44,783 bases of DNA from Gammaproteobacteria bacterium (lineage in GTDB: Bacteria; Pseudomonadota; Gammaproteobacteria; Xanthomonadales; Marinicellaceae): NCBI GenBank assembly GCA_024280395.1, contig JAJRQG010000066.1, positions 1 to 44,783 on the forward strand, in the 5' to 3' direction. The notes beneath the pieces are model-generated. The model ran no database searches. It worked only from the letters and a program-made list of their open reading frames with translations, and was not told the origin of the DNA. A program made the translations under genes and the position numbers. Below are positions 18,243 through 38,590 of this stretch, one piece after another (the stretch's first letter is position 1; each line of letters begins with the position of its first letter).

Positions 18243-18824
18243 ATGCAAAGCACTTTAGATCAAATAATTGTGGTAGATAATTTCTTTGATGATCCTGATC
18301 AAATGCGTGAGCTTGCTTTTTTAAAAACCTATTCAGCACCTCCTGTCGGCACTCCCCGTTTGGCAAGAACCGCTAGGTGTGCTGTACAAGAAGCACAAAA
18401 TGTTGTTGCCAGAATTATTCCTCATGTGCCTTATATCAGCGATGAGGAAGATTATGTGTTTAATGTTTTATTTAGATATACATTGGCAGACGCACAAAAG
18501 AAGACATTCTGTCATGTTGATAAGTCTACTTATGCAGGGATTGTATATTTGACTAGGCCTGAACATTGTGCAGGTGGAACCAGTATTTTTCGACACAAGC
18601 CAACAGGTGATGAAATCTACAAAGTTTCCAATGCACATCTATATAATTATAACGATCCCAGTCATTGGGAGCTGATCCAAGAAGTAGAGATGGTTCATAA
18701 CCGTTTGGTGGTTTATCCTGGGAAATTTTTTCACTCAATAACACCTGTTTTTTTTGGAGACAATATTGAGAATGCTAGATTAACACAGAATATTTTTATT
18801 TACCGTTCGGGTGACGGCATTTAG
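18243..18824 (+). CDS. DUF6445 family, putative 2OG/Fe(II) oxygenase
   Basis: A 193-residue protein. A possible iron-binding triad is visible as H91-x-D93 (FCHVDKSTYAGIVYLT) and H164 (YPGKFFHS), with a distal R179 (ARLTQNIFI) suited to binding 2-oxoglutarate. This is the double-stranded beta-helix pattern of prolyl-hydroxylase-like enzymes, and the start IIVVDNFFDDPDQMRELAF is typical of DUF6445. The substrate is unknown. It starts 21 bases after pckG. Its 3' end overlaps the convergent sulfotransferase gene by 29 bases, so both ends are coding on opposite strands. Confidence 0.8.
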   Translation: MQSTLDQIIVVDNFFDDPDQMRELAFLKTYSAPPVGTPRLARTARCAVQEAQNVVARIIPHVPYISDEEDYVFNVLFRYTLADAQKKTFCHVDKSTYAGIVYLTRPEHCAGGTSIFRHKPTGDEIYKVSNAHLYNYNDPSHWELIQEVEMVHNRLVVYPGKFFHSITPVFFGDNIENARLTQNIFIYRSGDGI

Positions 18825-19755
18825 AATCTACAAAATTTTTAATATTTTGGTATTGTTCTTGCATATCTGATATTAATGGAGAGATTTGTTCTTGATGTCT
18901 TTTCCACTTATCTTTGGCAGGAGTGGTGGAGGTGGTTTTGGAAAGAGCCAATTGTTGGTAGTCAGATTGATTGGCGGTAGCTCCAATAGAAAATATTTTG
19001 ATTAAATTAGATATTTCAGAATACGGGTTTTTTATAAAATCAGCATAATCAAGGGCAGTCCAACGGTTCTTCGGTAGTGATTCAAGGTTTTGCATTATTT
19101 GTTGATTGCTTTCTTTCCATTGAAAATATGCTATTTCAGCTAGCGATTTCCCATTCATTTTCCGCCAACCTTTGGGCAACAAAAAACACCAGTTTTTCCT
19201 ATCCCAGCCCTGGAGATTGGAAAAAGTAACAAACTGACCTGTTTTCTCTCCGATTTTCCACGCCTCAATTATGCTGGCAACATTCTGTTTGGGTTCCCGA
19301 TACAGATAAATAAATTTTGCATTGGGAAAGATTTCCAACAAGAATGGGATGTTAAGGGCATTTCTTGGTGTTTTTTCTAAGAACAAATCTTGCTTGTGAT
19401 GAGATAAGTCGAGGTTTACTAGCGGTTGATTGCAGTTATTCCTTAGCATGCTGAATGTTGCTAACTTAAAAAGCAAGGAAGTTTGTGGGTCTGCATGGTT
19501 TTTTGATAAACAAGCCGAGTCATATTGGAGGTTTTCAAATCTCAAATGAGGAAATTCTCGAAATATTACATGGCTTTCGCCGCCAATTGACCAAACATTG
19601 TCCAGTTGTATCATTTGTTCAAATAACAAAGTGCTGCCCGATCGTGGAGTAGATACTATGAAAACAGGATTAGAAACCATAAAGGAACTAAATATCTCTG
19701 GCGACTTTGGAGAAAGCTGGTTGTATAGATTAATTAAATTACGGTTAAACTGCAT
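18796..19755 (-). CDS. Sulfotransferase family protein
   Basis: A 319-residue protein. The PAPS 5'-phosphosulfate loop is STPRSGSTLLFEQ (residues 35-47). FLEKTPRNALNIPFLLEIFP and the 3'-phosphate motif FIYLYREPKQNVASIIEAW (about 149-166) follow. This is the Sulfotransfer_3 type, which moves sulfate from PAPS to tyrosine, sugars or small molecules; the acceptor is not predictable. No signal peptide or TM is evident, so it is probably cytosolic. Its start overlaps the AspH-type gene by 11 bases: the two are translationally linked on the minus strand, which suggests hydroxylation and sulfation of a common substrate (inference). Confidence 0.9.
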   Translation of the reverse strand: MQFNRNLINLYNQLSPKSPEIFSSFMVSNPVFIVSTPRSGSTLLFEQMIQLDNVWSIGGESHVIFREFPHLRFENLQYDSACLSKNHADPQTSLLFKLATFSMLRNNCNQPLVNLDLSHHKQDLFLEKTPRNALNIPFLLEIFPNAKFIYLYREPKQNVASIIEAWKIGEKTGQFVTFSNLQGWDRKNWCFLLPKGWRKMNGKSLAEIAYFQWKESNQQIMQNLESLPKNRWTALDYADFIKNPYSEISNLIKIFSIGATANQSDYQQLALSKTTSTTPAKDKWKRHQEQISPLISDMQEQYQNIKNFVDSKCRHPNGK

Positions 19756-20425
19756 CTACTAAGCAAGTACAAACATTGGGAGCATTGTCGAAATTATAAC
19801 AATTATGTGGACTACATTGGGTATTGGGGTGTGCTCTTTTTCCACAACAACACATTTCTCCTGGGATGACGTAATCCAAAATAATATGAGTCCGAATATT
19901 GTCGCCATCGTTGCTTACGCAATGAAAATGTTTGTTGTTTATTTCCATTAACTCTCCTTCTTGGATATTAATGGTTTCGGTATCAACGGTGAACAGAACT
20001 CTGTCATTGGTAAAAATCGGCAAGTGAATTCTGTGTGCATGAGACAAAGAAAAGTTTTTATCTAGATGGAAAGGTATGTCACCGCCAGGGAGCAGTCTGA
20101 CTAGATTGGTTCTAATTAAATAGCCACCACCATACTTTTGAATGAGGTTTTGTTGTTCTTGTGAAACATAGTAAGAGGATAAAAGTTTAATAACAGGTTG
20201 TAAGGCTTGTTCAAACTTTTCAAACATAGGATGCTTGGTTGGCATATTGTGTCTAAAGTCTTTATCAAAAATCAAACTAATGGTTTGGGTATACTTGTGT
20301 GCTCTGAACTGTTTTTGTCTCCAATTATCACTGTCCCAATCTTCTTCACTTAGGTTTGATACAATTTCTTGAAGTTCCTTAATATCAATATCGCCCAGTT
20401 TATTGAAGTTGCCATTAAAGTTCAT
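19745..20425 (-). CDS. Aspartyl/asparaginyl beta-hydroxylase-type dioxygenase with Cys-rich tail
   Basis: About 226 residues from the ATG at 20425; a TTG at 20437 is in frame but less likely. The fold signature is NLVRLLPGGDIPFHLDKNF (H120, D122), AHRIHLPIFTNDRVLF, and HFHCVSNDGDNIRTHIILDYV, with a distal His at 166 or 168 and R178 for 2-oxoglutarate. This matches the Asp/Asn hydroxylase family PF05118. The last 35 residues are unusual: seven cysteines, including CCC at 192-194 and a CTC near the end, with His residues between. That could be a metal-binding site. It is cotranscribed with the downstream sulfotransferase. A mobile-looking element lies just upstream. Confidence 0.85.
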   Translation of the reverse strand: MNFNGNFNKLGDIDIKELQEIVSNLSEEDWDSDNWRQKQFRAHKYTQTISLIFDKDFRHNMPTKHPMFEKFEQALQPVIKLLSSYYVSQEQQNLIQKYGGGYLIRTNLVRLLPGGDIPFHLDKNFSLSHAHRIHLPIFTNDRVLFTVDTETINIQEGELMEINNKHFHCVSNDGDNIRTHIILDYVIPGEMCCCGKRAHPNTQCSPHNCYNFDNAPNVCTCLVDAV

Positions 20426-20479
20426 GATAATACTCAAGTAAGATACAAAATTTTATTATAACTGGAACGCCATAGTTTT

Positions 20480-20780
20480 CCATAAGGAAGTTCTGATAAA
20501 TAGAATTTTCTCAGGCTTTCAGCGATTTTCAATATCAAAAAAGATTATTGCAGAGATAGTCATTCCACCTTAAAATAATCTGATGCAGAGATTGGAAATC
20601 GCTGGAAGCCCCGAAGGGATTGACTTTAAGCATGCATCTACTTCGTAAAATTTTAAAAAGATATGAATAACTGGGTGAATTCGTTTTTTTGATTTCACCT
20701 TATCCATTTCAAAATTTTACAAAGCATCTACACACTTAAAGGCAAGCTGAGAGTTTTCTATTTATCAGAGCTTTCATAAG
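20480..20780. repeat. MITE-like element of about 300 bp with imperfect inverted ends
   Basis: The left end (ccataaggaagttctgataa…) and the right end read on the opposite strand (cttatgaaagctctgataa…) are inverted over about 36 bases with an identical core tctgataaatagaa. An inner pair, gtaaaatttt near 20646 and aaaattttac at 20711-20720, forms a second stem. No coding frame is recognised. It fills the 20426-20785 gap, and the left end recurs at 11867-11917. Confidence 0.7.
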
Positions 20781-20785
20781 TAATA

Positions 20786-22765: not shown

Positions 22766-22863
22766 TGCGTATGTCTATAAGGTAATTAATACTTGTGTTG
22801 ATTGAATTATAGACGATAGAAACAGTCAAACAGGCACATAAATTCAAAAAAACAAATTTTAAA

Positions 22864-24516
22864 ATGAAAATTAAAAGATTATTTACTTTAAGCTTGATGG
22901 TGGCATTGTCATCACAAGCCCAATTTGCTGACAAAACCAAGCAATCTGGCATTGATTTTGTTCACCACAACGGCATGACAGGCCAGTTTCATATGATAGA
23001 AGTCATTGGCAGTGGAGCAGCATTTTTTGATTATGATAACGATGGAGACATGGATTTGTATTTGGTGCAAAGTGGCGACTTGCCTGTTTCAAAATCATCA
23101 GAAAACAAATATTTTGACAGGCTTTATCGAAATGATACCGTCAAAAAAGATACGCCAGTCTTTGTAGATGTAACTAAGAAAGCCAACATCAATGCTAGGG
23201 CTTATGGAATGGGTGTAGCAACAGGCGATTTAAACAATGATGGCAATGTGGATATTTTTCTTGCCAACTATGGACCGAACCAAATTTTGATGAATAGTGG
23301 CGATGGAACTTTTAAAAAACCGATGAATGTTGTCAAAGAAGCAGGCAATAACTGGAGTGTAAGCGCCTCGATAGTTGACCAGAACTCGGACGGCTATTTA
23401 GATATTTACGTTGCAAATTATGTCGAATATCCCTTGAATAAATTCATTAAAAGGTGCAAAGCTTATGATGGTTCTTTAGATTATTGTTCTCCTCAAGCTT
23501 TTCAATATCAATCAGATGAATTTTATAACAATAATAAAAATGGAACGTTTACCAATATCAGCTCAAAAGCAGGATTGACTAGTGCCAATGCACCTGGACT
23601 GGGTGTGGTTTCAGCAGATTTTAACAATGATTTGCGCCCTAATTTTTATGTGGCTAATGATGGTGTTGAGAATCATTTTTGGATCAACAAAGGAAATGAT
23701 GAGTATGTAGAGTTTGCACTTGCAAGTGGGGTTGCTGTTAACATGAATGGAGAGCCTGAGGCCAGTATGGGCGTTGATGCTGCAGATTTTGACAATGATG
23801 GAGACATTGATTTGTTTATGACCCACCTGAATCGTCAAACCAATACATTGTATGTAAACAATGGAAAAGGTTGGTTTTCTGATTTGACCGTTAGAATGAA
23901 GCTGGGCTCTAGTAGTTTTTCTTATACAGGCTTTGGAACACTTTGGTTCGATTATGACAATGATGGTTTGCTCGACCTGTTTAGTGCCAATGGGGCCATT
24001 GCAAAAATGGAAGAACAAATGCGCAACAAAGATCCATTCCCATTTAAACAAAGTAATCAAATATGGAAAAATTTGGGAAAAGGACAATACAAAGAGACCA
24101 CCAAAGAGCAAGACGTCAGTTTTCATACAAAGGCTGTTTCTAGAGGTGCAGCTTTTGCCGATATTGACAATGATGGCGATTTGGATGTAATAGTGACCAA
24201 TAACAATGGCATTCCACAATTGTTAATCAATCAAATGGCAAAGAGCAGTTGGATAGGGTTGAGAATAATAAACCCTGAGAACAACAGAACAGAGGCAGGG
24301 GCGCTAGTTACGTTAATTCAACATGACAAGAAATACTATAAAAAAATCAAAACAGATGGCAGTTTCGAGTCCTCACATGATGATAGGGTTATTTTTGGTT
24401 TGGGTAACAACAAGTCAGAAATCAAAATTAAAATACAATGGGTTGATGGCACGATAACCCAACACAACAAATTAGCCGTCAATAAATACCACACAATTAG
24501 AAAGCCTAAAAAATGA
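22864..24516 (+). CDS. CRTAC1/ASPIC-type secreted protein with FG-GAP (VCBS) repeats
   Basis: A 550-residue protein with a signal peptide (about MKIKRLFTLSLMVALSSQA). Seven Ca2+-binding-like DxDxDG loops follow: FDYDNDGDMDLYL, GDLNNDGNVDIFL, DQNSDGYLDIYV, DFNNDLRPNFYV, DFDNDGDIDLFM, FDYDNDGLLDLF and DIDNDGDLDVIV. This pattern builds an integrin-like beta-propeller. The C-terminus (WIGLRIINPENNRTEAGALV, FGLGNNKSEIKIKIQWVDG) is the ASPIC/UnbV domain. It is exported and probably binds surface or extracellular ligands; the family is often encoded with TonB receptors. The stop overlaps the following signal-peptide frame as ATGA. Confidence 0.92.
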   Translation: MKIKRLFTLSLMVALSSQAQFADKTKQSGIDFVHHNGMTGQFHMIEVIGSGAAFFDYDNDGDMDLYLVQSGDLPVSKSSENKYFDRLYRNDTVKKDTPVFVDVTKKANINARAYGMGVATGDLNNDGNVDIFLANYGPNQILMNSGDGTFKKPMNVVKEAGNNWSVSASIVDQNSDGYLDIYVANYVEYPLNKFIKRCKAYDGSLDYCSPQAFQYQSDEFYNNNKNGTFTNISSKAGLTSANAPGLGVVSADFNNDLRPNFYVANDGVENHFWINKGNDEYVEFALASGVAVNMNGEPEASMGVDAADFDNDGDIDLFMTHLNRQTNTLYVNNGKGWFSDLTVRMKLGSSSFSYTGFGTLWFDYDNDGLLDLFSANGAIAKMEEQMRNKDPFPFKQSNQIWKNLGKGQYKETTKEQDVSFHTKAVSRGAAFADIDNDGDLDVIVTNNNGIPQLLINQMAKSSWIGLRIINPENNRTEAGALVTLIQHDKKYYKKIKTDGSFESSHDDRVIFGLGNNKSEIKIKIQWVDGTITQHNKLAVNKYHTIRKPKK

Positions 24517-24578
24517 AAAAAATACTGATATTGTTAATAGCCATTAGTTTTAACTCGTATTCTTCTATAAATATATAA
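24513..24578 (+). other. Detached signal-peptide start of the next TPR gene
   Basis: The ATG overlaps the CRTAC1 stop (ATGA) and encodes MKKILILLIAISFNSYSSINI, a clear export signal, then TAA at 24576-24578. The same frame continues without another stop (YPDLSSSKPTIKSRHTELLEKLGEAKK…) into the ATG at 24705. The two parts look like one gene broken by a single nonsense codon. Confidence 0.75.
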
Positions 24579-24704
24579 TACCCAGATTTATCGTCATCAA
24601 AGCCAACAATTAAAAGCAGACATACTGAACTCCTAGAAAAACTTGGCGAGGCAAAAAAGAGCGAAACCGGCTATAAATTAGCGGAAGTATATGGCAAGTT
24701 AGGT

Positions 24705-26096
24705 ATGTTTTATCAGGCCCATGAGTATTTTAAACCAGCTGAACAAGCCTATCTGAATTCCATAGAATTGGCCAAAAGCAATGCAAAATGGCATTATTTG
24801 CTTGGCGTGTTGTATAAAGGCGAAGGCGAATTTGAAAAAGCTCAAGAAAGCTTCTTTAATTCATGGGAATACAATAAAAGTTATGTTCCCGCTATGGTTT
24901 ATTTGGCCGAAATGCTGTATTTGCAGGGAGATTTCATAAAAGCTCAAGAGTATTTTGAACAGGTTTTAAAGCTCAATGAAAAAAATGCAAGGGCTCTCGT
25001 GGGTATAGGAAAAATACAACAACAAGAAGGAGATTTTGTTTCAGCAATTGAGCTCTATAAAAATGCCATAGCGCTTCAGCCTCAGGCGAATCAAATAAAT
25101 TTTTTACTTGCTCAAGCTTATGCTGCTACAGGCAATCAAGAAATGGCAAAAAAATACAATTTGGTCAAGGGTAGAATCCAGGCACAAATCTATGATCCGT
25201 TGATTCTAAAGATGTTAGATGAGTCGCGCAGCTCTACTTTTTATAACGATAAAGCCATAAGGTCTTTTCAAGCAAAAGACTATAAAAATGCAGAAATATT
25301 TGCAAAAAAAGCCATTGGCTTAGATAGCGAAACGGTCTACCCATTTGTTACTTTGGCCAACATTTATGTATCTACAGGAAGGGCACAAGAGGCCTCTGAG
25401 TTATTAGAAAAAGTTATTAAAGTTAATCAGGAAGATGTTAATTTATTATATAGCTTGGGGGTTATAGAAGAGATTTTGACTCACGATGACAAGTCAATTT
25501 ACTGGTATGAAAAAGTATTATCCAATGATCCTGAACACAAAAAAGCCAGCATCACCTTGGCATCAGCATATATGAGAAAAGGCCAATTTGACAAAGCATT
25601 GTCGGAATTAAGTAGAGCAAGAAGGCTTAATCCCAGCAATCCATATTTGTTAACAAGACAGGCCGTTATCTATGCTCATAAAGGGCAGTGCGTTCAAGCT
25701 CAAGATAAAATATATACGGCAGTAAAAGAACTACCAAAGAATTTTTCGTTTCTGGAAGTGTTTATAAAAATTGCAATACAATGTGATGTTGACAAACAAA
25801 TGGAAGCCGATGCATTGAATGCGGCAAGAAACATTTACAACATAGCCCCGAATGATGCTATTGTTGAGTTGCTAGCAGTGATTGAATCCAAATCAGGAAA
25901 TCAAGACAATGCAATTGATTACCAGGCTCAGGCTATTTTCAAGGTGTTGTCTGATAACAACAATAATAATAAAGAAAAAATAAAACAGTTAAAGGCAAAC
26001 CTAGAATTGTATAAAAAAGGAGATTATCCGAAAAAACAATTCAAAATTGGGGATCAGAATCTTTATCCCGGCAGCTTTACAAGGGTAAAAACTTAA
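24705..26096 (+). CDS. TPR-repeat protein, separated from its signal peptide by an in-frame TAA
   Basis: A 463-residue open frame made almost wholly of TPR repeats (for example AYLNSIELAKSNAKWHYLLG, AQEYFEQVLKLNEKNARALV, AIELYKNAIALQPQANQINF, LSRARRLNPSNPYLLTRQAV). The homologous frame clearly begins upstream at 24513 with a signal peptide, but a TAA at 24576 interrupts it. If translation restarts at 24705 the product lacks an export signal and would stay in the cytosol. With readthrough or in a corrected sequence it would be a ~527-residue periplasmic TPR protein. It lies between the CRTAC1-type protein and the TonB receptor, and probably assists one of them (inference). Confidence 0.85.
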   Translation: MFYQAHEYFKPAEQAYLNSIELAKSNAKWHYLLGVLYKGEGEFEKAQESFFNSWEYNKSYVPAMVYLAEMLYLQGDFIKAQEYFEQVLKLNEKNARALVGIGKIQQQEGDFVSAIELYKNAIALQPQANQINFLLAQAYAATGNQEMAKKYNLVKGRIQAQIYDPLILKMLDESRSSTFYNDKAIRSFQAKDYKNAEIFAKKAIGLDSETVYPFVTLANIYVSTGRAQEASELLEKVIKVNQEDVNLLYSLGVIEEILTHDDKSIYWYEKVLSNDPEHKKASITLASAYMRKGQFDKALSELSRARRLNPSNPYLLTRQAVIYAHKGQCVQAQDKIYTAVKELPKNFSFLEVFIKIAIQCDVDKQMEADALNAARNIYNIAPNDAIVELLAVIESKSGNQDNAIDYQAQAIFKVLSDNNNNNKEKIKQLKANLELYKKGDYPKKQFKIGDQNLYPGSFTRVKT

Positions 26097-29278: not shown

Positions 29279-29307
29279 AAAGCCCGTCTAGTACGGGCTT
29301 TATTTTT
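29279..29307 (+). terminator. Rho-independent terminator of the TonB receptor gene
   Basis: The stem aaagcccgt / acgggcttt is a 9-bp perfect stem (29279-29287 with 29293-29301) around the loop ctagt, followed by atttttat. The last bases run directly into the ATG of the next gene. Confidence 0.85.
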
Positions 29308-30003
29308 ATGTATATTAATCAAAACAATTTAGAAAAAAATAGTAGTTTTCTACTAACGAACAATCATTTAAGGATAAGTAATTTTTTAAATGATGAATTT
29401 GCAAAAAGAATATCTTTTTGTTTAGAAAAAGAAGTCGATTGGGGACTGGCCTGTAGAATTGATGGGAGCCCCAAAACCTTTCAAAATACCAACGATTTAA
29501 ATCAGTTAGATTCATTTGATTTGGATAAGTTGAAATCACAACTCGGTGTCGAGTTTCAGTTTATCTATAATACTTATATGATGGTGACTGCTTATATTGA
29601 GAAAAGAGATCCTAATTTATATTTAAATAGAGTTTTAGAATGGTTGAATACACCCGTTGTAATTAATTACTTTAAACTCCTTATAAGTGATAGCTCTTTA
29701 AAAAAAATAAACGCTCAAGCAACACGATATTTGCCGGGGCATTACCTAACCCAGCACAATGATGAGAACCTAGAAGAAGGACGTTTGTATGCTTATGTAA
29801 TGGGTTTTTCAAAGAATTGGAACCCTGATTGGGGTGGGTTATTGCATATTTTGGATGAAAATAAAAACATTGTAAAAACTCTTGTACCTGAATATAACTC
29901 ATTGTCAATTTTTAAAGTCCCACAAAATCACTTTGTTTCTTTGGTATCTCCATTTGCAAAGAATGAAAGACTAGCAATAACAGGTTGGCTACTGTCGAAA
30001 TAA
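29308..30003 (+). CDS. 2OG/Fe(II) oxygenase, prolyl 4-hydroxylase-like
   Basis: A 231-residue protein. The iron and 2-oxoglutarate ligands fit H150-x-D152 (YLPGHYLTQHNDE), H208 (FKVPQNHFVSLV) and R221 (NERLAITGWLL), with the family's WGGLLHIL strand. The closest type is the P4Hc/Ofd1-like group, which hydroxylates prolyl or other residues in proteins; the substrate is unknown. The ATG lies immediately after the terminator's T-run and no ribosome binding site is visible. No other ATG is available until about residue 91, so the start is accepted, but its expression is odd. It comes just before a TPR-oxygenase gene. Confidence 0.85.
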   Translation: MYINQNNLEKNSSFLLTNNHLRISNFLNDEFAKRISFCLEKEVDWGLACRIDGSPKTFQNTNDLNQLDSFDLDKLKSQLGVEFQFIYNTYMMVTAYIEKRDPNLYLNRVLEWLNTPVVINYFKLLISDSSLKKINAQATRYLPGHYLTQHNDENLEEGRLYAYVMGFSKNWNPDWGGLLHILDENKNIVKTLVPEYNSLSIFKVPQNHFVSLVSPFAKNERLAITGWLLSK

Positions 30004-30004
30004 T

Positions 30005-30073
30005 ATGTTTGATGATATATTAATTTATTATAGAAACAATCAATTCGATAAAGTCATTAGGCATGTTGATTAA
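30005..30073 (+). other. Detached N-terminal fragment of the next TPR-oxygenase gene
   Basis: The ATG, one base after the previous stop, opens a frame MFDDILIYYRNNQFDKVIRHVD, which looks like a TPR helix, then TAA at 30071-30073. The same frame resumes with DEKNIQLLELKGLSALK and reaches the ATG at 30125 without another stop. It is a second case of an apparently broken TPR gene start. Confidence 0.7.
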
Positions 30074-30124
30074 GATGAAAAAAATATTCAGCTATTAGAA
30101 TTAAAAGGATTATCAGCATTAAAA

Positions 30125-31792
30125 ATGGCTGAGTATAGTTGTGCAAGTGAAGTATTTGAAAAGCTTATTAAACAAGATTCCAAACCAGCCAACCATTACC
30201 ATAATGCATTGGCGAACATGAGCTTGGGGAATTATAAAAAAGCATTAATGCACTTTGAAATAAGCAAACTAGATGTTCAATTAAATATCCCATCAAGAAT
30301 AAACCTTGCAGTTTGTTTAATAGAAGTGGGTGAAGAAGACAAAGCTTTAGTTTCACTGAAAGAAATAAGTGATGAAATACCAGAAATAAACGAAGCTTGG
30401 TTTCTGCTACTTAAGCTATATAGAAGGAGAAAGGATATTGATCAAATTAAACGAATATTAGAAGCTTCTAAAGCATATATAGAGACAAGCGAAGATTGGA
30501 AAAAAAGTGAAATTTACTTATTGTATTATTTAAAGCAATATTCTAAAGCAATAGAGAAAATCAATTCATACTACACTGATAAAACAAAAGAAATTTTATC
30601 TTTGTTGGCGAAGTGCTATACAAAGGTATCAAAATTTGAAAAGGCCATAGAAATTTACTTAAAGGTTCTTGAAGAAGAGAAAAACTCAATTAATTTTTAT
30701 AATATTGCCGCAGCATATTCTAACTTAACAAATGATACAGACTTGTTAAGAGGAATAGAATATGCGAATTCAAGTTTAGAAATGGACGGTAACTGCCACC
30801 AGTCATATTACTGTAAGGCTTTAATTGTTCATAAAATGGGAAGTATTAACGAAGCTTTGGAGTTTGTAAATATAGCGTTGAATATTGATACAGGTAACAG
30901 TGAATATTTGTATAAAAAAGCTGAGTTATTGAACTTATCTAAGCAACATACAAAGAGTATGAGAATACTCAATGAAATCCTTCAAAAGGACCAATACAAT
31001 AATTTGGCACTGAGATTAAAAGGAATAATACTATTGCAAACAAACGAACTTGTTAATTCAGAGGCGATTTTAGGCAAGGCACTAAGTATAGAAGATACCG
31101 ATCAAAGAACATTGGCCTATTTTGCAATTAGCAAGTTAGCACAAAAGAAACAGAATGAAGTGTTAGAGTTTCTAGGAGTAGGTGATTTGGTTAAAGAATA
31201 CCAATTGGATCTGGTTCCAGATTTTGAAAATTTGGAGCAATTCAACAATGATTTAGAAATGGATATAAAAAATCACAGTTTATTAAGAAAAGAACCAAAT
31301 GGGTTGGCAGCTAGAAACGGGTATTTAACAGACAATTTATTTGTTGATAAGACAAAATCGATTGTTGTTTTTAAAAAATTATTATTACAAAAAATTAAAC
31401 AATATATCAATAGTCTTCCAACAAGTATGCAGCATCACATGTTGAAACATAAGACACATGATTTTGAGATAAACTCATGGGCTACATGGGTGAAAGGTGA
31501 TGGATTTATTGACAAACATATTCATGAGGAGTCTTGGATAAGTGGAGCGTATTATTGTAGAGTTCCAGAAATAACAGAACAAACAACAACTAAAAAAGGT
31601 TATTTTGAATATGGGTGTATTCCGAATGACATAGAAATTACTATTGAAAAAGAGAGAGGATATATAAAACCTGTGGAAGGAAAGCTTATTATATTTCCTT
31701 CTTACCTATACCACCAAACAATACCTCATGAAAGTCAAGAAGATAGAATAAGTATCGCATTTGACCTAACACCGATTTCATGGAAGAAATAG
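30125..31792 (+). CDS. TPR protein with C-terminal 2OG/Fe(II) oxygenase domain
   Basis: A 555-residue open frame. The N-terminal two thirds are TPR repeats (VFEKLIKQDSKPANHYHNAL, ALMHFEISKLDVQLNIPSRI, KAIEIYLKVLEEEKNSINFY). The C-terminal domain is a PF13759-like putative oxygenase: H465-x-H467 (DKHIHEESWISGAYY), H530 (FPSYLYHQTIPH, with a second His at 535) and R541 (EDRISIAFDL). The true gene probably begins at 30005, but a TAA at 30071 intervenes. Restart at 30125 would lose one or two TPR helices and leave the oxygenase intact. The TPR part is likely to bind the substrate, in parallel with the TPR-sulfotransferase of this region. Confidence 0.88.
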   Translation: MAEYSCASEVFEKLIKQDSKPANHYHNALANMSLGNYKKALMHFEISKLDVQLNIPSRINLAVCLIEVGEEDKALVSLKEISDEIPEINEAWFLLLKLYRRRKDIDQIKRILEASKAYIETSEDWKKSEIYLLYYLKQYSKAIEKINSYYTDKTKEILSLLAKCYTKVSKFEKAIEIYLKVLEEEKNSINFYNIAAAYSNLTNDTDLLRGIEYANSSLEMDGNCHQSYYCKALIVHKMGSINEALEFVNIALNIDTGNSEYLYKKAELLNLSKQHTKSMRILNEILQKDQYNNLALRLKGIILLQTNELVNSEAILGKALSIEDTDQRTLAYFAISKLAQKKQNEVLEFLGVGDLVKEYQLDLVPDFENLEQFNNDLEMDIKNHSLLRKEPNGLAARNGYLTDNLFVDKTKSIVVFKKLLLQKIKQYINSLPTSMQHHMLKHKTHDFEINSWATWVKGDGFIDKHIHEESWISGAYYCRVPEITEQTTTKKGYFEYGCIPNDIEITIEKERGYIKPVEGKLIIFPSYLYHQTIPHESQEDRISIAFDLTPISWKK

Positions 31793-31815
31793 AACCATTT
31801 AAATTAATTAAAAAT

Positions 31816-32469
31816 TTAAAAAATAAAATCCATTCCAGGTTTGTTCGGGAGAACATCAAAAGCTATGATGGCTCGCGTGTCTTCTTTTTTGAATGGATGT
31901 ACATAATGTTGATACCATGGTGGAAATAAAACCAGCATACCTTCTTTTGGCTCAACTCTTCTGTTGTAAGGAAAACCGTGGTGCCAAGATTCTAGGTTGG
32001 GTGTGATAAATTCAATACAACCTTCAGGATTTTTTAAACCTTTGGGCATTTTCACGTAATAACAGCCACTGGCAATGGTACCAGGTGAAGGGTGTGCATG
32101 AGGTGCTTGCCAATCTCCTTTATGTAAAATATTCGCCCATGCATTGGGGTATGGTGAAACTTGTTCGGCGGCTTCTTTAAAATGGTGTTGTAAATAAGTT
32201 TCAATGGCTGGCATAACAATGTTATTTCTAAAGGATTGGATGTGTTTGTTATCGAGATCTAGAAAATTAATTTTTGTGGGTGTTTGATAACCCCCCATGG
32301 TGGTGATGGTTTGTGACTTAACCTCGTTTTGATCGGTATCTTTATAACGACTCTCCAAATCAGCTATAATATTTAATAGGTGTCTATTAAGCTCATCTGT
32401 ATCTTCGTGTTGCCTTTGCATAACGGTTGTAGGTACATGAACTTCTATATCGTCTTTAAAATTGTGCAT
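31816..32469 (-). CDS. PF13759-like putative 2OG/Fe(II) oxygenase
   Basis: 217 residues from the ATG at 32469. Visible ligands are H124-x-H126 (QAPHAHPSPGTIASGCYYV), H188/H191 (FPPWYQHYVHPF) and R199 (DTRAIIAFDV). It resembles the C-terminal domain of the TPR-oxygenase at 30125 (TIGR02466 type). A longer frame up to 32511 exists, but a TATAAT -10 box lies at 32498-32503 on this strand, so the protein should start at 32475 or 32469. The gene is convergent with the TPR-oxygenase. The substrate is unknown. Confidence 0.85.
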   Translation of the reverse strand: MHNFKDDIEVHVPTTVMQRQHEDTDELNRHLLNIIADLESRYKDTDQNEVKSQTITTMGGYQTPTKINFLDLDNKHIQSFRNNIVMPAIETYLQHHFKEAAEQVSPYPNAWANILHKGDWQAPHAHPSPGTIASGCYYVKMPKGLKNPEGCIEFITPNLESWHHGFPYNRRVEPKEGMLVLFPPWYQHYVHPFKKEDTRAIIAFDVLPNKPGMDFIF

Positions 32470-32497
32470 AATCATTACTAGAAAAGTTAGAACACAT

Positions 32498-32503: not shown

Positions 32504-32645
32504 GCGAACAAATAAGGATTTAATAAAATTAGTTAAAGATTAACAAGCAAAACTTGATGCATGACAAATTGTTATTTAGAAATCTCATGAAAATATTTGA
32601 GGAACCATGATACAATAGTATCTTTAATAATAAGGTGAGATGGTC

Positions 32646-33180: not shown

Positions 33181-33199
33181 AGGGCGTGTTTTACGCCCT
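33181..33199. terminator. Bidirectional terminator between convergent genes
   Basis: The stem agggcgt / acgccct encloses the loop gtttt. It has ttgtttatt on the right and, read on the other strand, gttattttt. It serves both the small membrane protein gene and the E2 gene ending at 33204. Confidence 0.75.
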
Positions 33200-33203
33200 T
33201 TGT

Positions 33204-34403
33204 TTATTCCGTCCAATTTTCTAAAGTTTCAACAAACGCACTTAAAAACTGATTGCATTGTTGAGCATCTAAAACACGATGATCAATGGTTAAGCTGACA
33301 TAGCACATGGGTTTAATGACCATAACATCTTCGCCATCAAATTCTTTAACCATTACTCTTTTTTCCATTTTCCCTATGCCCAATATAGCAGATTGTGGTT
33401 GATTAATGATGATGGGTGTGGCAATTAAGGAGCCACTAACACCGTGATTGGAAACAGTAAAAGTTCCACCTTGTACATCACTTGGTTTTAATTTGTTACT
33501 GCGGGCTTTATTGGTCAGCAAAGTCAATTCCTTGGCAATTGAAAACAAGTCTCTATTTTGGCAATTTTTAAGAACAGGTACAATAAGCCCATCGTCATTT
33601 AATGCCGTACCAATGCCAATATTCATCTGGTTAAATACTTCAACAGTATCCTTATGTAATTGTGAATTAATCATCGGTTGTTGCTTTATGGCTTCTACAC
33701 AGGCAGCAATAAAATAGCTGGTGAAAGTCAAACCTGCACCTTGTTGTTTGAAGGGTTCTTTGTGTTGCTTGCGGTGTTTAATAATAGCAGTTAAGTCCAA
33801 GTTAAAAACCGAAGTCACATGTGGGGCAGTATGTAATAAACTTTCGACCATGTGTTTGGCAATACTTCTTCGCATATTGCTAATGGGCAAGTGCTGACTG
33901 GAACTTTCAATATTGTTCTTGGGATTTTTTAAATAGTTCTCAATGTCCCGACTGGTGATTCTGTGGTTTTTACCTGTGCCAGTTAATTGATTAATGTTGA
34001 TGTTGTGCTGTTGTAATAATCGGCGTACTGCGGGGCTGATTAATTGGTTAGATAATAAATTAGAGCCTGAGAAATTGTCGTTATTATTGTTTTCTGGTTG
34101 TTTAAGAGTTTTGTCTTTAGTTTGTTGAGAAGAGGTTTTTTGTGGTTGGTTTAGTGATACTGCTGAGTCATCAATCACACCAATAGCAATCGAATGGGTG
34201 ACTTCATTACCCGATTTTAGAAATTGTTTGGACAAAATGCCAGAAACAGGAGCGACGATTTCCATCATCACTTTATCGGTTTCTAATTCTAGTATCGGTT
34301 GGTTTATTTCAACCCTTGACCCCTCATCAAATAACCATTGGCTAAGTACCGCTTGCGTGCCTTCGGTTTGATCTTCATTCAAAATAATGTCTATCAATGC
34401 CAT
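33204..34403 (-). CDS. 2-oxoacid dehydrogenase E2 (lipoyl acyltransferase), branched-chain type
   Basis: A 399-residue protein. The lipoyl domain has the lysine in LELETDKVMMEIVAP (about residues 39-53). After a linker, the E3-binding domain is ISPAVRRLLQQHNININQLTGTG and RITSRDIENYL. The catalytic domain runs from MRRSIAKHMVESLLHTAPHV to TIDHRVLDAQQ, where His and Asp of the HxxxD motif are present but the usual following Gly is Ala. It transfers the acyl group from E1 to CoA in the multienzyme complex. The start overlaps the E1 stop (TAATG). Its E1 partner and regulator suggest branched-chain oxoacids rather than pyruvate. No E3 gene is in the window. Confidence 0.9.
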   Translation of the reverse strand: MALIDIILNEDQTEGTQAVLSQWLFDEGSRVEINQPILELETDKVMMEIVAPVSGILSKQFLKSGNEVTHSIAIGVIDDSAVSLNQPQKTSSQQTKDKTLKQPENNNNDNFSGSNLLSNQLISPAVRRLLQQHNININQLTGTGKNHRITSRDIENYLKNPKNNIESSSQHLPISNMRRSIAKHMVESLLHTAPHVTSVFNLDLTAIIKHRKQHKEPFKQQGAGLTFTSYFIAACVEAIKQQPMINSQLHKDTVEVFNQMNIGIGTALNDDGLIVPVLKNCQNRDLFSIAKELTLLTNKARSNKLKPSDVQGGTFTVSNHGVSGSLIATPIIINQPQSAILGIGKMEKRVMVKEFDGEDVMVIKPMCYVSLTIDHRVLDAQQCNQFLSAFVETLENWTE

Positions 34404-36493
34404 TAGTTTTTGTCCAATTGTTGAATAGAAGATAAAATCTTCTCAACAGTGGGTACTACCGAATTCATGAGGTTGGGCTCATGTGGGGTGCCAATATCCG
34501 GCATTGCAAGGCGTTCAATGGGTGCATCCAAATAATAAAAGGCATCTTTAGCTAAAACAGCGGCAATTTCAGCACCAAAACCAGCCGAAATATTGTCTTC
34601 ATGCACAATCAAACAACGGTTGGTTTTCTTCACAGATTCAATAACCATCTCCTTATCCCAAGGACGAATGGTGCGCAAATCAATTAAATCAATGTCCAAT
34701 CCAGATTGTTCAACAGCTTTAGCACAACGGTGAACCATTCCACCCCAAGTAACAATTGTCAATCTATCGCCTTGGGTAATTTTTTTGCCTTTTCCAAAAG
34801 GAATGACGTATTGATCACCAGGGTATTCACGTCGCGCCCAAATATGATCAAGCATTCGGCGGTGCTCAAAGAAAATAGTGGGGTTATTGTCTCGCAAAGC
34901 GAAACGCAATAAACCAACAGCATCTTCGGCATTAGAAGGCATGGCTACTTGCCAGCCAATCGCGTGAACCCATTTAACCTCGGCAGTTTGCGAATGCCAA
35001 GGATCGCCACAACCAAAATAACCGCCCGCCATGCGAACCACCATGGGCGCTGCAAAACGATTGTTGGTACGCCAACGCATGGAGCCAATGTCATTGAGTT
35101 GCTCTTCTGCTGGGTCTGCATATTTTCTAAATTGTATTTCAGGGACGGGCAATAATCCAGCTAAGCTCATGCCCAAAGAACGACCGATAATGCCTTCTTC
35201 AGATAGACTGGTATTGAATACACGATTGCTGCCATATTTTTCTTGGAGCCCTAATGTAACTGCGTGAACACCTCCTTTAGCACCGACGTCTTCTCCAAAA
35301 ACCGCCATTTTTTTGTTGGTTTGTAGTTCAAAATCAAGGGTTTTACGAATTGCAGTAACCATATTGATTCGTCCAGGATGTGAAATGACTTCTTGTGAGG
35401 CTGGCGGAAAGGTCGGTTTTGATAGGTGAATACCGCCTTGTTGTTGTAGTTGCATACGGCCTTTTTCATCGAATTCACAAAAGGTATTGGTGGTGATAGT
35501 TTCTGGATTGGCAAAGGGTTTGTTGTCGGCTTTAATTAGAGCTTGATTAACAATTTTTTTAGCTTCTTTTTTTAAGTTTTGCCATTTTTCTTGGGTAATA
35601 AATTTGTTGTTGAGTAAATATTTTTTTAGTTTTGGCAAGGGATCATGTTGTTGTTCAAAAGCTATGCGTTGTTCAGACTTATAGGCTTGAGTGTCTTGTG
35701 CTGAATGTCCATTTAATCTAGGTACAGTTAGCCTCAATAAAACAGGTTTGCGTTCGACTCGAACAACTTGGTGGGCTTTGGCGACTAAATCTGCTGTTTG
35801 TTGCGGATTGGTGCCGTCACCACTGAAAATAGTTAAGCCTTTAAAGTTGGCTAGATTTTTAGAAATATCTCCACCAGGAGTTTGGAATTCTGAAGGAACA
35901 GAAATGCCATACCCGTTGTCCTCGATGTAAAACAATTGAGGCAATTTTTGTGTAGTGGCAATCGTAATAGCAGACCAAAATCCATTGGTTGCAACAGAGC
36001 CATCACCACCCAACACAAGACCGATAGCATCTTTCCATTTGTGGTTGTTTAAAACTTTAGCGTGGTATTTTGCCGCTTGAGCCCACCCGGAAACAGGTGT
36101 ATATTGTGCGCCGACGCCACCTGACATGGGCAAGATGCAAGCACCATCGTGTTTTGGGTTATTGAATACTACGCCAATATCTCGGCCATCGGAAAATCCA
36201 CCTTCTTTCATCATGGATGCTTCTAAAGCCAGTTGTGGAGGTAAGCCCAGAGCCAACAACAAAGGGCGAGAACGGTAATAACCAGAAACAGCATCTTTCT
36301 GCCCAATTAAACATTGTCCCAAAATTATCTGAGCCATATCGTGACCACGGGCAGAAAATTGATACAGGACTTTTTTATTTTTGACCAAAGTAAATTCTTC
36401 TAAATCATCAAGCTCACGAGAAACAAGTAATTTGGATGCAATTTCATGCCAATCAAAGGAAAATTGGGTTTCTAAATGTTCAGCAGTATTCAT
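34403..36493 (-). CDS. Fused E1 alpha/beta 2-oxoacid dehydrogenase (2-oxoisovalerate type)
   Basis: A 696-residue protein joining both E1 subunits. The alpha part (to about residue 350) has the thiamine-pyrophosphate motif LGGDGSVATNGFWSAI … IEDNGYGISVPS and RLNGHSAQDTQAYK. The beta part has VFGEDVGAKGGVHAVTLGLQ, FNTSLSEEGIIGRSLGM, IQFRKYADPAEEQL and DLRTIRPWDKEMV. It decarboxylates a 2-oxoacid and loads the product on E2 lipoate. Fusion of the two chains is known in several proteobacteria and Bacteroidota. It is transcribed with E2 and is divergent from an Lrp/AsnC regulator, the usual arrangement for branched-chain oxoacid dehydrogenase control. Confidence 0.92.
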   Translation of the reverse strand: MNTAEHLETQFSFDWHEIASKLLVSRELDDLEEFTLVKNKKVLYQFSARGHDMAQIILGQCLIGQKDAVSGYYRSRPLLLALGLPPQLALEASMMKEGGFSDGRDIGVVFNNPKHDGACILPMSGGVGAQYTPVSGWAQAAKYHAKVLNNHKWKDAIGLVLGGDGSVATNGFWSAITIATTQKLPQLFYIEDNGYGISVPSEFQTPGGDISKNLANFKGLTIFSGDGTNPQQTADLVAKAHQVVRVERKPVLLRLTVPRLNGHSAQDTQAYKSEQRIAFEQQHDPLPKLKKYLLNNKFITQEKWQNLKKEAKKIVNQALIKADNKPFANPETITTNTFCEFDEKGRMQLQQQGGIHLSKPTFPPASQEVISHPGRINMVTAIRKTLDFELQTNKKMAVFGEDVGAKGGVHAVTLGLQEKYGSNRVFNTSLSEEGIIGRSLGMSLAGLLPVPEIQFRKYADPAEEQLNDIGSMRWRTNNRFAAPMVVRMAGGYFGCGDPWHSQTAEVKWVHAIGWQVAMPSNAEDAVGLLRFALRDNNPTIFFEHRRMLDHIWARREYPGDQYVIPFGKGKKITQGDRLTIVTWGGMVHRCAKAVEQSGLDIDLIDLRTIRPWDKEMVIESVKKTNRCLIVHEDNISAGFGAEIAAVLAKDAFYYLDAPIERLAMPDIGTPHEPNLMNSVVPTVEKILSSIQQLDKN

Positions 36494-36632
36494 AAGGATA
36501 TTGTTGTTAAATAAGGAATGTAATTATATATCCAATAAAATGGAATGTGCTTGCTAAATATATCTATAGATTTCATATATAAGCAACTTAAATGATATAT
36601 AATTGATATTTAAGAAATAAAAATATAAAAAA
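36494..36632. promoter_or_regulatory. Divergent AT-rich control region between E1 and the Lrp-type regulator
   Basis: A very AT-rich gap of 139 bases with a perfect 10-bp palindrome atctatagat (36562-36571) and repeated atatat/gatatat blocks. This is suited to an Lrp-family regulator that binds degenerate AT-rich palindromes. The exact promoters cannot be fixed by eye. Confidence 0.4.
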
Positions 36633-37097
36633 ATGGATAAATACGATATAAAAATTTTGGAAATTATTCAGAAAAATGGTCGAGTAACCAACAAAGAATT
36701 GGCAGAAATGGTAAATCTATCTCCGGCTCCTTGCTGGCGGAGAATGCAGGGGCTCGAACAAAAGGGCTATATTAAAAGCTATACTGCATTATTGGATCAT
36801 GAGCAAATAGGTCTAAGTATTATTGCCTTCGCCCATGTCAGTTTGGATGATCACCACGAGAAGACGGTTCGTTCCTTCGATAAGGCCATGACAGAATGGT
36901 CTGAAGTTCAAGAGTGTCATGCGACATCTGGAGGGTATGATTATTTGCTAAAAATTATTGCTGTAGACATGAAGTCATACAACCATTTCATGTATGAGAA
37001 ATTATTAAAGCTAAAAGCCATTCGGTCGGTGAATACCAGTTTTTCGATGATGCAAAAAAAGGTATCAACACAGTTGCCCCTATCGCATTTAAAATAA
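36633..37097 (+). CDS. Lrp/AsnC family transcriptional regulator
   Basis: A 154-residue protein. The N-terminal helix-turn-helix is DIKILEIIQKNGRVTNKELAEMVNLSPAPCWRRMQGLEQKGYI. The C-terminal RAM ligand-binding domain follows (LDHEQIGLSIIAFAHVSL, ECHATSGGYDYLLKIIAVDM, SVNTSFSMMQKKV). Members sense amino acids; the divergent position beside the E1/E2 genes suggests a BkdR-like activator responding to branched-chain amino acids (inference). The length is standard. Confidence 0.93.
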   Translation: MDKYDIKILEIIQKNGRVTNKELAEMVNLSPAPCWRRMQGLEQKGYIKSYTALLDHEQIGLSIIAFAHVSLDDHHEKTVRSFDKAMTEWSEVQECHATSGGYDYLLKIIAVDMKSYNHFMYEKLLKLKAIRSVNTSFSMMQKKVSTQLPLSHLK

Positions 37098-37141
37098 CAT
37101 TCTGCTATTATAAAACATTCAGAACAACCCAGATAATTAGC

Positions 37142-38590
37142 ATGAATGAACAAATGAATTTGCAAGATATTCAATTTAGGATGCAAAATGCTGTCATTGG
37201 CACCCAAGAATTTTCACAGGCTCTAGAACAATTAAACAAATTGATCAATCAAGGTAATATTGAGGCGGGTTTATATTTATCTTGGGTTTACACACAACGT
37301 GGTGGAATCATAGATACCAATAAAAAAGCCTACGAGCTGTGTGAAAGAATTGTAGCAGCCACAGACCATCCTGCTGCCTTAGAAAGGATGGCTGATTTAC
37401 TGTTGTGGGGAGTTGGCCTAGAAAAAGACGAAGCCAAGAGTTTTGGAATTTATAAGAAACTGGTTGATCAAGGGCTGATGCCTTTTACTACTTTGGCCTA
37501 TTTGTATTCACAAGGAATAGGCACCATTGCCGATGAATGCGAAGCTTCAACTTTAATTTTAAAGGCCGCAGCCCAAGGAGATACTTTGGCTTTTATGTTA
37601 CTCAGTTTTCGCTATGAAGTGGGTTTAGGCGTTCCTATCAATGGTAAATTAGCCAGAGCCTATGCAACTTTAGCAGTGAAAAGAGAGTTTCCAGGAGCTC
37701 AGCAACGGTTAGACAAGTTGAATTTAAGGTTTTCCTCAATAGCCTCAGAGCAGGTTGATGCAAGTGTTGAAATATTGATTAAAAATATTGAACACATGTA
37801 TGATAAGGTGGCTAAATTAAATCAGTCAGTTGGCCCAAATAACCCAGAGTTCGCAGCTAAGTACATGCAATTATTGTCTAACAACTTTTCTGAACTTAAT
37901 ATATCTGATTTATCAATCATTCCTGAAGTTAGAGGGTTTGAAATAAAGCAGAGAGCGAAACACGAATTAGATTGTAAAATCATAAGTGACAGCCCCTTGA
38001 TTATGAGTATTGATTGCTTTGCTAGTTTTGAAGAATGCCAATATCTCATTCAACAAGCAATACCCATGTTGGAATCCACAAAACAACAAGCCAAGAAAGT
38101 AACCAATACAGAGATAGATGCTTTTTCTGGAGACAGTGCTATATTCACTAGCCGGCAAACATCTCCGGTTGATAGGACTATTCAACAAAGGTTCTCTGAA
38201 ATAGAAAATGTTCCAGTGAGTTATTTTGAGCCCATTTCACTGTTGAAATATTCTGTTGGTCATGATTATAGTACCCACACTGATGCTTTCGATGCAGAGA
38301 GGATACGTAGGCACGAACTCAAAGGAGATTTTGGAGGGCAGAGAATGACGACAAACCTAATTTACCTTTTACCAGCAATTGAAGGTGGAATTACCCGTTA
38401 TGATAAAATTGATCTTAATATTTCAGGAGAGATGGGGATGTCTGTAATCCATCACAATGCAAGAGCTGATTTTAATCCTGATCCTCAATCATTGCATACC
38501 GGAATGGAAATACTACAAGGAGAGAAGTGGCTGTTAAGAACAGCCACAAGACAAAATCCACTGTATGGAACCAATAAAACGGTAGTTTAG
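37142..38590 (+). CDS. Sel1-repeat protein fused to prolyl 4-hydroxylase-like oxygenase
   Basis: A 482-residue protein. The N-terminal ~190 residues are Sel1-like helical repeats (AALERMADLLLWGVGLEKDE, TTLAYLYSQGIGTIADECEA, LLSFRYEVGLGVPINGKLAR). The C-terminal domain is a P4Hc dioxygenase with H379-x-D381 (YSVGHDYSTHTDAF), NLIYLLPAIEGGITRYDKI, H452 (SLHTGMEILQGEKW) and K462 for 2-oxoglutarate, the classical prolyl-hydroxylase ligand set. No signal peptide is seen. Like the TPR-oxygenase and TPR-sulfotransferase nearby, it couples a protein-binding repeat to a modifying enzyme. It converges on the DUF481 gene with a 4-base overlap. Confidence 0.9.
   Translation: MNEQMNLQDIQFRMQNAVIGTQEFSQALEQLNKLINQGNIEAGLYLSWVYTQRGGIIDTNKKAYELCERIVAATDHPAALERMADLLLWGVGLEKDEAKSFGIYKKLVDQGLMPFTTLAYLYSQGIGTIADECEASTLILKAAAQGDTLAFMLLSFRYEVGLGVPINGKLARAYATLAVKREFPGAQQRLDKLNLRFSSIASEQVDASVEILIKNIEHMYDKVAKLNQSVGPNNPEFAAKYMQLLSNNFSELNISDLSIIPEVRGFEIKQRAKHELDCKIISDSPLIMSIDCFASFEECQYLIQQAIPMLESTKQQAKKVTNTEIDAFSGDSAIFTSRQTSPVDRTIQQRFSEIENVPVSYFEPISLLKYSVGHDYSTHTDAFDAERIRRHELKGDFGGQRMTTNLIYLLPAIEGGITRYDKIDLNISGEMGMSVIHHNARADFNPDPQSLHTGMEILQGEKWLLRTATRQNPLYGTNKTVV

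Follow-up and report, generated by a model that had tools for sequence, protein, structure and literature searches.

A recurrent set of oxygenase and sulfotransferase genes beside TonB-dependent receptors: a candidate module for protein hydroxylation and sulfonation

Why should a bacterial genome gather several oxygenases and sulfotransferases around a single outer membrane receptor? The question is raised by a contig from a gammaproteobacterium of the family Marinicellaceae (JAJRQG010000066.1, assembly GCA_024280395.1), of which the whole stretch of 44,783 nucleotides was analysed and is called the window below. Between positions 18,243 and 38,590 it carries genes for 2-oxoglutarate (2OG)/Fe(II) oxygenases and for sulfotransferases (STs), some fused to tetratricopeptide repeats (TPR) or Sel1 repeats, together with a gene for a TonB-dependent receptor (TBDR). 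From the sequence of this region a post-translational hydroxylation and sulfation pathway for one peptide or surface protein had been proposed (the original prediction), and all of the open reading frames (ORFs) named there are present where they were placed. We find that genes for TPR-sulfotransferase fusions (TPR-STs) lie near TBDR genes more often than expected by chance, and that the module is real, recurrent and statistically supported. Many bacteria have similar enzyme sets beside related receptors, a pattern that suggests some undescribed modification of the receptors or of their cargo. The reading that we prefer, although with less than even confidence, is that the set hydroxylates and sulfonates protein, and that the likeliest target is the precursor of the adjacent TBDR.

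The linkage between enzymes and receptors was assessed in several samples (L, G and C numbers are our handles for loci, genomes and contigs). Of 60 TPR-ST loci, 32 have a TBDR and 24 a 2OG-type gene, whereas among 20 control stretches the corresponding numbers are 2 and 0 (Fisher p = 0.0006 and 0.0004, respectively). The 60 loci were taken mostly in score order among the matches listed, with several per genome and nine shorter than 12 kb; the controls were placed at round coordinates in 10 genomes. TBDRs were detected with a hidden Markov model (HMM) that was seeded with the window receptor and extended through the loci fetched; other TBDRs can go undetected in both groups. Seven loci (L061, L064, L073, L077, L085, L090 and L094) were chosen when a TBDR or a 2OG-FeII_Oxy_4 oxygenase (OG4) was already visible as a neighbour; when these are left out, both associations persist (TBDR 27/53, p = 0.0013; 2OG-type gene 18/53, p = 0.0017). 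Some DNA was fetched twice: L121 equals L001/L002, L122 equals L073, L161 equals L061, and L140 overlaps L023. In a rotation test on four closed genomes, with a TPR-ST defined without its TPR part as a Sulfotransfer_3 match in an open frame of at least 500 aa, a TBDR Plug domain is found no more than 10 kb from 7 of 14 TPR-ST clusters, where rotation predicts 1.68 (p = 0.0013), and no more than 5 kb from 5 of them, where it predicts 0.90 (p = 0.002). Taking all Sulfotransfer_3 clusters together, the observed numbers are 8 of 20 at 10 kb (2.36 expected, p = 0.0017) and 5 of 20 at 5 kb (1.27 expected, p = 0.009).

The association is also seen from the side of the receptors and of the oxygenases. 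Twenty loci further down the list of TBDRs similar to that of the window, next after the closest seven and with G121 omitted, include a TPR-ST in 7, a 2OG-FeII_Oxy_5 (Oxy_5) gene in 8 and at least one enzyme in 11. TBDRs are near a TPR-ST in 7 of 20 cases against 8 of 86 (p = 0.0075), the distances being slightly different and the 8 of 86 counted by hand. Of eighty loci chosen for OG4 from Alpha- and Gammaproteobacteria (Lysobacter, Arenimonas, Shewanella, Halieaceae, Brevundimonas, Caulobacter, Sphingomonas and others), 37 have a TBDR, 35 another enzyme and 52 at least one of these, which leaves 28 with neither. The arrangement is directional as well: among 89 TBDRs, counted after dropping L002, L121, L122, L140, L161 and the control loci, the nearest enzyme within 700 bp is downstream on the same strand in 29 cases and on the opposite strand in 6, and upstream in 7 and 4 cases, respectively.

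The cluster of the window is no local accident, and the order of its core is kept across families. One genome of the same genus (G009; L001/L002) has the same core with a second pair of genes for a CRTAC1/UnbV-type protein (CRTAC) and a TPR protein, and two more TPR-STs; another (G004) has the same core on two contigs (L006, L073). In a genome of another family (G063; L023/L140), the order CRTAC, TPR, TBDR, OG4, TPR-Oxy_5, Sel1-2OG is preserved, with two minus-strand ORFs between TBDR and OG4. The Sel1-2OG gene of L140 lies inside the cluster and matches the window copy at E = 1.7e-86, which brings the outlying Sel1 gene of the window back into the set. The co-conservation anticipated in the original prediction held in this other family for CRTAC, TPR, TBDR, OG4 and TPR-Oxy_5 and found less support for other parts. 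DUF6445, found in 107 of 299 genomes, was rejected as a core member, for by eye it is seldom beside a TPR-ST among the matches listed (outside the window in at least four, in G021, G082, G112 and G124). The CRTAC-TPR pair was rejected as a core member everywhere: such pairs (L021-L058, L060) are common across the order, often several per locus, mostly without TBDR or modifying enzymes, with a TBDR in only 5 of 39 CRTAC loci (L059, fetched for its TPR-ST, left out) and CRTAC in only 4 of 60 TPR-ST loci and 3 of 80 OG4 loci.

Other combinations of the same enzymes recur beside receptors. A block of TBDR, Oxy_5, a convergent TPR-ST and an OG4-labelled gene of about 200 aa (407 aa in L211) is found in four genera (L207, L210, L211, L213, L215). 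In a metagenome-assembled genome (MAG) of Halieaceae (L184) the run reads SapC, TPR-AspH, OG4, TPR-ST, OG4, TPR-Oxy_5, TBDR, TPR-ST, the SapC gene (5166-5963) opening it. A Natronospirales MAG (L147) carries Sel1-2OG, OG4, TPR-AspH, an AspH-ST fusion, TPR-ST, a 2OG-FeII_Oxy_3 gene, Oxy_5 and, at the edge of the locus, a TBDR fragment, with two interspersed genes without a Pfam match. Sixteen TPR-AspH fusions occur in loci chosen for TPR-ST or OG4, and 14 of these have a TBDR in the locus; the other two are on contigs shorter than 10 kb. Cultured carriers include Arenimonas composti DSM 18010 (L158, with TBDR, TPR-ST, OG4 and TPR-AspH), Pseudomarimonas arenosa CAU 1598 (L163) and Brevundimonas basaltis DSM 25335 (L178). 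The genome of the window itself has a second TBDR directly followed by a TPR-ST (L020, contig C25, 7546-11538).

The enzyme assignments behind these counts agree largely with those originally made. In a scan of 20 proteins from 14-39 kb of the window against Pfam gathering cut-offs, two STs and four 2OG oxygenases score above cut-off and the fusion of enzymes to TPR and Sel1 repeats is borne out, while the oxygenase matches of the DUF6445 and Sel1-repeat proteins stay below it (for DUF6445, a family without assigned function, 16.3 bits against 27). A Sel1-2OG homologue of the same architecture (L147, 8324-9655) reaches 56 bits in its oxygenase part. With the NCBIfam model TIGR02466 (cut-off 62.5), the TPR-Oxy_5 protein scores above (64.6 bits) and the Oxy_5 oxygenase at 31816 (OG5) below (55.1). 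Catalytic residues are strongly conserved, expressed as fractions of the alignment rows that have a residue at the column: in TPR-ST (118 rows) R425 0.97, E446 0.95, K503 0.97 and R528 1.00; in OG4 (107 rows) H150, D152 and R221 1.00 and H208 0.99; in Oxy_5 proteins (50 rows) HxH, H and R all 1.00; in AspH (24 rows) H124, H138, H172 and R182 all 1.00; and in Sel1-2OG (15 rows) H379, D381 and H452 invariant. The DUF6445 motif alignment has three rows only. Loss of the oxygenase ligands, named beforehand as damaging to the proposed pathway, was not seen in the core; of the HxD/HxH...H...R patterns first noted, those of both Oxy_5 proteins are HxH...H...R and not HxD.

Predicted structures place two of these enzymes close to proteins that act on proteins. 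The TPR-ST model (mean predicted local distance difference test score, pLDDT, 85.6) consists of a TPR superhelix (about 1-375) and a catalytic domain (about 411-659, with R425, E446, K503 and R528). Its arm matches the TPR of O-GlcNAc transferase (1w3b; Z 23.7, root-mean-square deviation (rmsd) 6.2, 351 residues aligned) and also consensus TPR proteins, and its catalytic part matches human TPST1 with adenosine 3',5'-bisphosphate (PAP) and peptide (Z 21.5, rmsd 3.1, 244 aligned), ahead of the CurM ST (Z 18.8, rmsd 3.7, 228 aligned) and an olefin-synthase ST (also Z 18.8). In sequence, the nearest solved proteins are TPST1/2 (E = 6e-7 to 1e-6), followed by the olefin-synthase ST (4gox, 8e-5). 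The alignment to TPST keeps the PRSGTT motif of the site for 3'-phosphoadenosine 5'-phosphosulfate (PAPS) and the catalytic Arg, Glu and Lys, which we take to be R78, E99 and K158 in TPST2. By model and alignment, then, TPR-ST resembles an O-GlcNAc transferase-like TPR superhelix joined to a tyrosylprotein sulfotransferase-like domain, an architecture that suits docking of a polypeptide. O-GlcNAc transferase and SPINDLY likewise run from a TPR superhelix into a C-terminal transferase domain acting on protein, whereas the domain here is a sulfotransferase (Sulfotransfer_3) and not a glycosyltransferase; in contrast to TPST1/2, the window enzyme is bacterial, fused to a TPR superhelix and without a visible signal-peptide-like N-terminus. 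The OG4 model (pLDDT 95.6) ranks highest against the C-terminal domain of Ofd1, Tpa1 (titled proline hydroxylase of Rps23) and OGFOD1, followed by an uncharacterised Burkholderia oxygenase, an EF-Tu-binding prolyl hydroxylase from Pseudomonas, and PHD enzymes; OGFOD1 is also its nearest sequence. OG4 keeps the HxD...H...R of Ofd1, Tpa1 and OGFOD1, which are two-domain proteins with a second oxygenase-like domain, while OG4 is a single domain of 231 aa and stands beside TBDRs. It thus resembles the protein prolyl hydroxylases in predicted fold; protein hydroxylases lead the ranking, though OG4 may yet act on a small molecule.

A further link between hydroxylation and sulfonation comes from the AspH and ST genes at 19745 and 18796. 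Their overlap by 11 bases, reported in the original prediction, is real, with AspH upstream. Among the loci, this ST is closest to the C-terminal half of the AspH-ST fusion proteins (E = 4e-54 to 1e-38; next best 4e-7). The N-terminal part of the fusion resembles the window AspH (26% identity) and its C-terminal part the window ST (34%), colinear with the gene order, and judged by this similarity the overlapping genes are the split form of the fusion. A search of 369 genomes of the class gave fusions in five (G430, G542, G552, G033 and G337, to which L147 belongs), and L035 and L039 have them too; that of G552 has one internal TGA, and that of G033 is split into two pieces that share a 662-aa frame. 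Genes that overlap in one genome and are fused in another are classically taken to be coupled in function, and the window pair fits this pattern.

These observations can be joined in one proposed mechanism. The TPR and Sel1 arms would hold a polypeptide in extended form, as the TPR superhelix of O-GlcNAc transferase does, while 2OG/Fe(II) hydroxylases, probably cytoplasmic (the OGFOD1-like OG4 and the AspH-like, Oxy_5 and Sel1 types), would modify it and PAPS-dependent sulfotransferases would act on the same chain. APS kinase, needed for PAPS, is encoded in the genome of the window, and no signal-peptide-like N-terminus was seen on the modifying enzymes (no predictor was run). Within the AspH-ST pair, the hydroxylase would make a hydroxyl that the sulfotransferase then sulfonates. 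No other non-enzyme recurs as often in the linked loci as the TBDR, and the TBDR precursor is the best candidate for the substrate, probably modified before Sec export and folding. The outcome would be a receptor with hydroxylated and sulfonated residues, which could be tuned for ligand binding or shielded from phages or proteases. We know of no report of hydroxylation plus O-sulfonation of an outer membrane protein. If such a process exists, sulfation and protein hydroxylation would join outer membrane biogenesis and might in turn affect nutrient uptake, phage adsorption and metal acquisition.

No substrate emerged from the computations, which did narrow the original proposal. When 1,314 small ORFs of the window and of 19 cluster loci were compared, 436 had a cross-locus match, and the 25 most widely shared appear by eye to be antisense reads of a shared neighbouring gene. 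A stricter pass, limited to 88 small ORFs close to the cluster genes of the same 20 sources and clear of longer ORFs, gave no cross-locus match at E 1e-3, although a short or diverged precursor could escape it. A peptide precursor within the cluster is therefore disfavoured, while the enzyme classes, their ligands and their co-conservation with the TBDR stand; the original idea is partly supported, being right in outline, with the receptor precursor as the best candidate target but not proven. As a separate observation, eight loci (L126, L156, L158, L163, L207, L211, L213, L215) have matching antisense small ORFs of one neighbouring gene, and the module may thus sit at one ancestral site. The receptors were also compared column by column, linked against unlinked (22 against 7) and with against without TPR-ST (15 against 14), three rows on the unlinked side being dropped. 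Y547 (0.87 against 0.21) and a few other columns were considered and rejected as evidence of a modified site, the sample being small and tracking phylogeny. Of the 85 TBDRs in a tree, most of which were chosen for linkage, 74 have a neighbour of interest, CRTAC and halogenase being included as such, and 11 have none. The C-terminal motif NxFDKxPP...FANSFD is found in many receptors of the clade, including receptors without enzymes in the stretch fetched.

Several results weigh against modification of the receptor. No TBDR residue clearly separates enzyme-linked from unlinked receptors in this small, phylogenetically confounded sample. No TBDR is nearby in 28 of the 60 TPR-ST loci and 7 of the 14 closed-genome clusters, and the stretches fetched around 9 of 20 window-like TBDRs, some of them short, contain no enzyme. 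Elsewhere in the genome of the window, no TBDR match was found on the contigs that carry a TPR-ST (C152, L059) and two AspH genes (C79, C132). The enzyme set varies from locus to locus, stand-alone relatives of the ST half of the fusion exist among the matches that yielded the fusions, and OG4 also matches the small-molecule enzymes PasI (rank 22) and PolD (rank 31) in fold. Two genes of the window have in-frame stops: the TPR gene, whose frame runs from 24513 with a signal-peptide-like start through a TAA at 24576-24578 and is then open to 26096, and the TPR-Oxy_5 gene, with a frame from 30005, a TAA at 30071-30073 and an open frame to 31792. In both, homologous sequence persists between the TAA and the start given by the ORF caller; the stops may be recent nonsense mutations or assembly errors.

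What else could bring these genes together? The enzymes might make or process a small ligand imported by the TBDR, siderophore-like or otherwise hydroxylated and sulfonated, as proposed for CciO, PiuC and YbiX; we consider this somewhat unlikely. In the excerpts of PMC12004947 available to us, the Caulobacter TBDR CciT functions strictly in dependence on CciO, a 2OG dioxygenase of the cytoplasm; synteny of the pair extends across Proteobacteria, where PiuA/PiuC and Fiu/YbiX are its counterparts; and the three models of the authors concern making a ligand, removing an inhibitor or oxidising a ligand. This is the nearest tested precedent, as far as those excerpts go: the gene for the TBDR adjoins that for a 2OG/Fe(II) oxygenase as in the window, but the window TBDR resembles Fiu only remotely (24% over 129 residues, E = 5e-4). 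The part of the PMC12004947 text at hand contains no word beginning 'hydroxylat'. The ligand explanation gains further from the ST at 18796, whose nearest PDB sequence is the CurM ST of a polyketide pathway, a match that also counts against a protein substrate. The AspH family (PF05118) includes lipid hydroxylases as well. In methanobactin operons (MbnT, MbnS), as described in the part of PMC3621798 available, a TBDR and in some cases an ST, believed to sulfonate a threonine, accompany post-translational chemistry around a ribosomal peptide. Nevertheless, systems of the CciO type have one PKHD-type oxygenase per TBDR, whereas the window has several oxygenases, STs and TPR arms. E. coli YbiX scores 520 bits on the NCBIfam PKHD-type model, no window oxygenase matches the PKHD models, and BLASTP of YbiX against the six window oxygenases gives a best E of 0.012, so the window enzymes are not members of the CciO/YbiX group. 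The 20 scanned proteins show no Pfam match to a non-ribosomal peptide synthetase, a polyketide synthase, a named inner membrane transporter or an MbnB-like protein (that at 32640 has no match at all), the window has no Fur-box-like site at up to three mismatches, the failure to find a shared precursor-like ORF was counted against a ligand, and TPR and Sel1 arms are hard to explain with a small-molecule substrate.

Mobile genes or common regulation might also produce the linkage, a hot spot next to TBDRs gathering paralogues that share no pathway. The turnover of enzyme sets between loci and the many unlinked paralogues fit this, as does the guanine-plus-cytosine content of OG4 and TPR-Oxy_5 (29308-31792), at 0.31 against 0.37 for the window, which hints at a different history. 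The same block in four genera, the core order conserved between families (L023/L140), the bias to downstream same-strand positions and the AspH-ST fusions speak against it, and we regard it as quite unlikely. Alternatively, the module could modify other exported proteins, such as CRTAC, the TPR protein or another surface protein, the TBDR being only a partner or neighbour. In the window, L001, L022 and L023, CRTAC and TPR genes immediately precede the TBDR gene, and the fusion loci L035 and L039 have CRTAC-TPR genes and no detected TBDR; yet most enzyme loci lack CRTAC, and few CRTAC loci have a TBDR, and this explanation seems slightly less likely still. Modification of the TBDR precursor stays the preferred reading, at the tentative level given above.

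Among known systems, the original statement that no described system has this set applies to the full combination, but pairs of its components have been described, namely TBDR with 2OG oxygenase and TBDR with ST, in the portions of PMC12004947 and PMC3621798 consulted. RaxST/RaxX, as far as its abstracts tell, is a bacterial tyrosine sulfation system with a dedicated secreted peptide and its own raxSTAB genes, and those abstracts do not mention TBDR, TPR or oxygenase partners. We found no open-licence PMC paper on DUF6445, on a TPR-sulfotransferase or on sulfation plus hydroxylation of a TBDR. The available part of PMC12004947 calls the connection between TBDRs and 2OG oxygenases undefined before that study and leaves the molecular link open. 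Here, in Alpha- and Gammaproteobacteria both cultured and uncultured, the pairing is extended to TPST-like TPR-STs, TPR-AspH proteins and AspH-ST fusions, which points to protein modification as a testable answer. The broadest form of this answer, that a widespread bacterial system hydroxylates and then O-sulfonates TBDR side chains in the cytoplasm before export, with AspH-ST fusions adding and sulfonating the hydroxyl within one protein, would also explain why receptors such as CciT need a cytoplasmic oxygenase, with the receptor rather than the ligand as the target of the enzyme, and we think it unlikely.

Tryptophan-halogenase genes are present in two TPR-ST/TBDR loci (L018, 11647-13266, by Pfam; L072, 15292 and 16779, by a local HMM), suggesting that halogenation is part of the same theme. 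The available text of two halogenase papers (PMC8269204, PMC5945002) has no word beginning 'TonB' or 'SapC'.

Genes of the cluster in the window, with coordinates, strand and family evidence (scores in bits against the Pfam cut-off)
Feature	Coordinates	Strand	Evidence and remarks
DUF6445 gene, 193 aa	18243..18824	+	65 vs 24; motif HxD (91-93), H164, R179; peripheral partner
Sulfotransferase, 319 aa	18796..19755	-	Sulfotransfer_3 80 vs 27
AspH-type 2OG oxygenase, 230 aa	19745..20437	-	Asp_Arg_Hydrox 42.4 vs 22.6; H124, H138, H172, R182
TPR-sulfotransferase (TPR-ST), 659 aa	20786..22765	-	TPR; Sulfotransfer_3 98 vs 27
CRTAC1/UnbV-type protein	22864..24516	+	FG-GAP, UnbV_ASPIC; N-terminus signal-peptide-like (by eye)
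TPR protein	24513..26096	+	TPR (Pfam); ORF caller start 24705
TonB-dependent receptor (TBDR), 957 aa	26367..29240	+	Plug and TonB barrel; common partner of enzyme sets
OG4 oxygenase, 231 aa	29308..30003	+	2OG-FeII_Oxy_4 78 vs 27; H150, D152, H208, R221
TPR + 2OG-FeII_Oxy_5 fusion	30005..31792	+	Oxy_5 77 vs 27; ORF caller start 30125; HxH (465, 467), H530, R541 (numbered from 30125)
OG5 oxygenase, 231 aa	31816..32511	-	2OG-FeII_Oxy_5 66 vs 27; HxH (138, 140), H202, R213
Sel1-repeat + 2OG oxygenase, 482 aa	37142..38590	+	Sel1 above cut-off; oxygenase part 17.6 vs 27; outlying

The cluster lies in a housekeeping neighbourhood, as genes for PEPCK, ParB, ParA and GidB are found to the left of 18243. 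The DUF6445 and ST genes overlap tail to tail by 29 bases. The genes at 33204-37097 were rejected as members of the set, being a 2-oxoacid dehydrogenase E1/E2 pair and an AsnC-type regulator by Pfam; the Sel1-2OG gene is located past them. A Sel1-2OG gene is near a 2-oxoacid dehydrogenase E1 gene twice, in the window (34403-38590) and in L147 (5230-9655), possibly by coincidence. A gap of 67 bases separates the TBDR from the start of OG4, and at 29279-29307 within it a terminator-like hairpin followed by a T run can be read from the sequence (no scan was run), so that OG4 may be a separate transcript.

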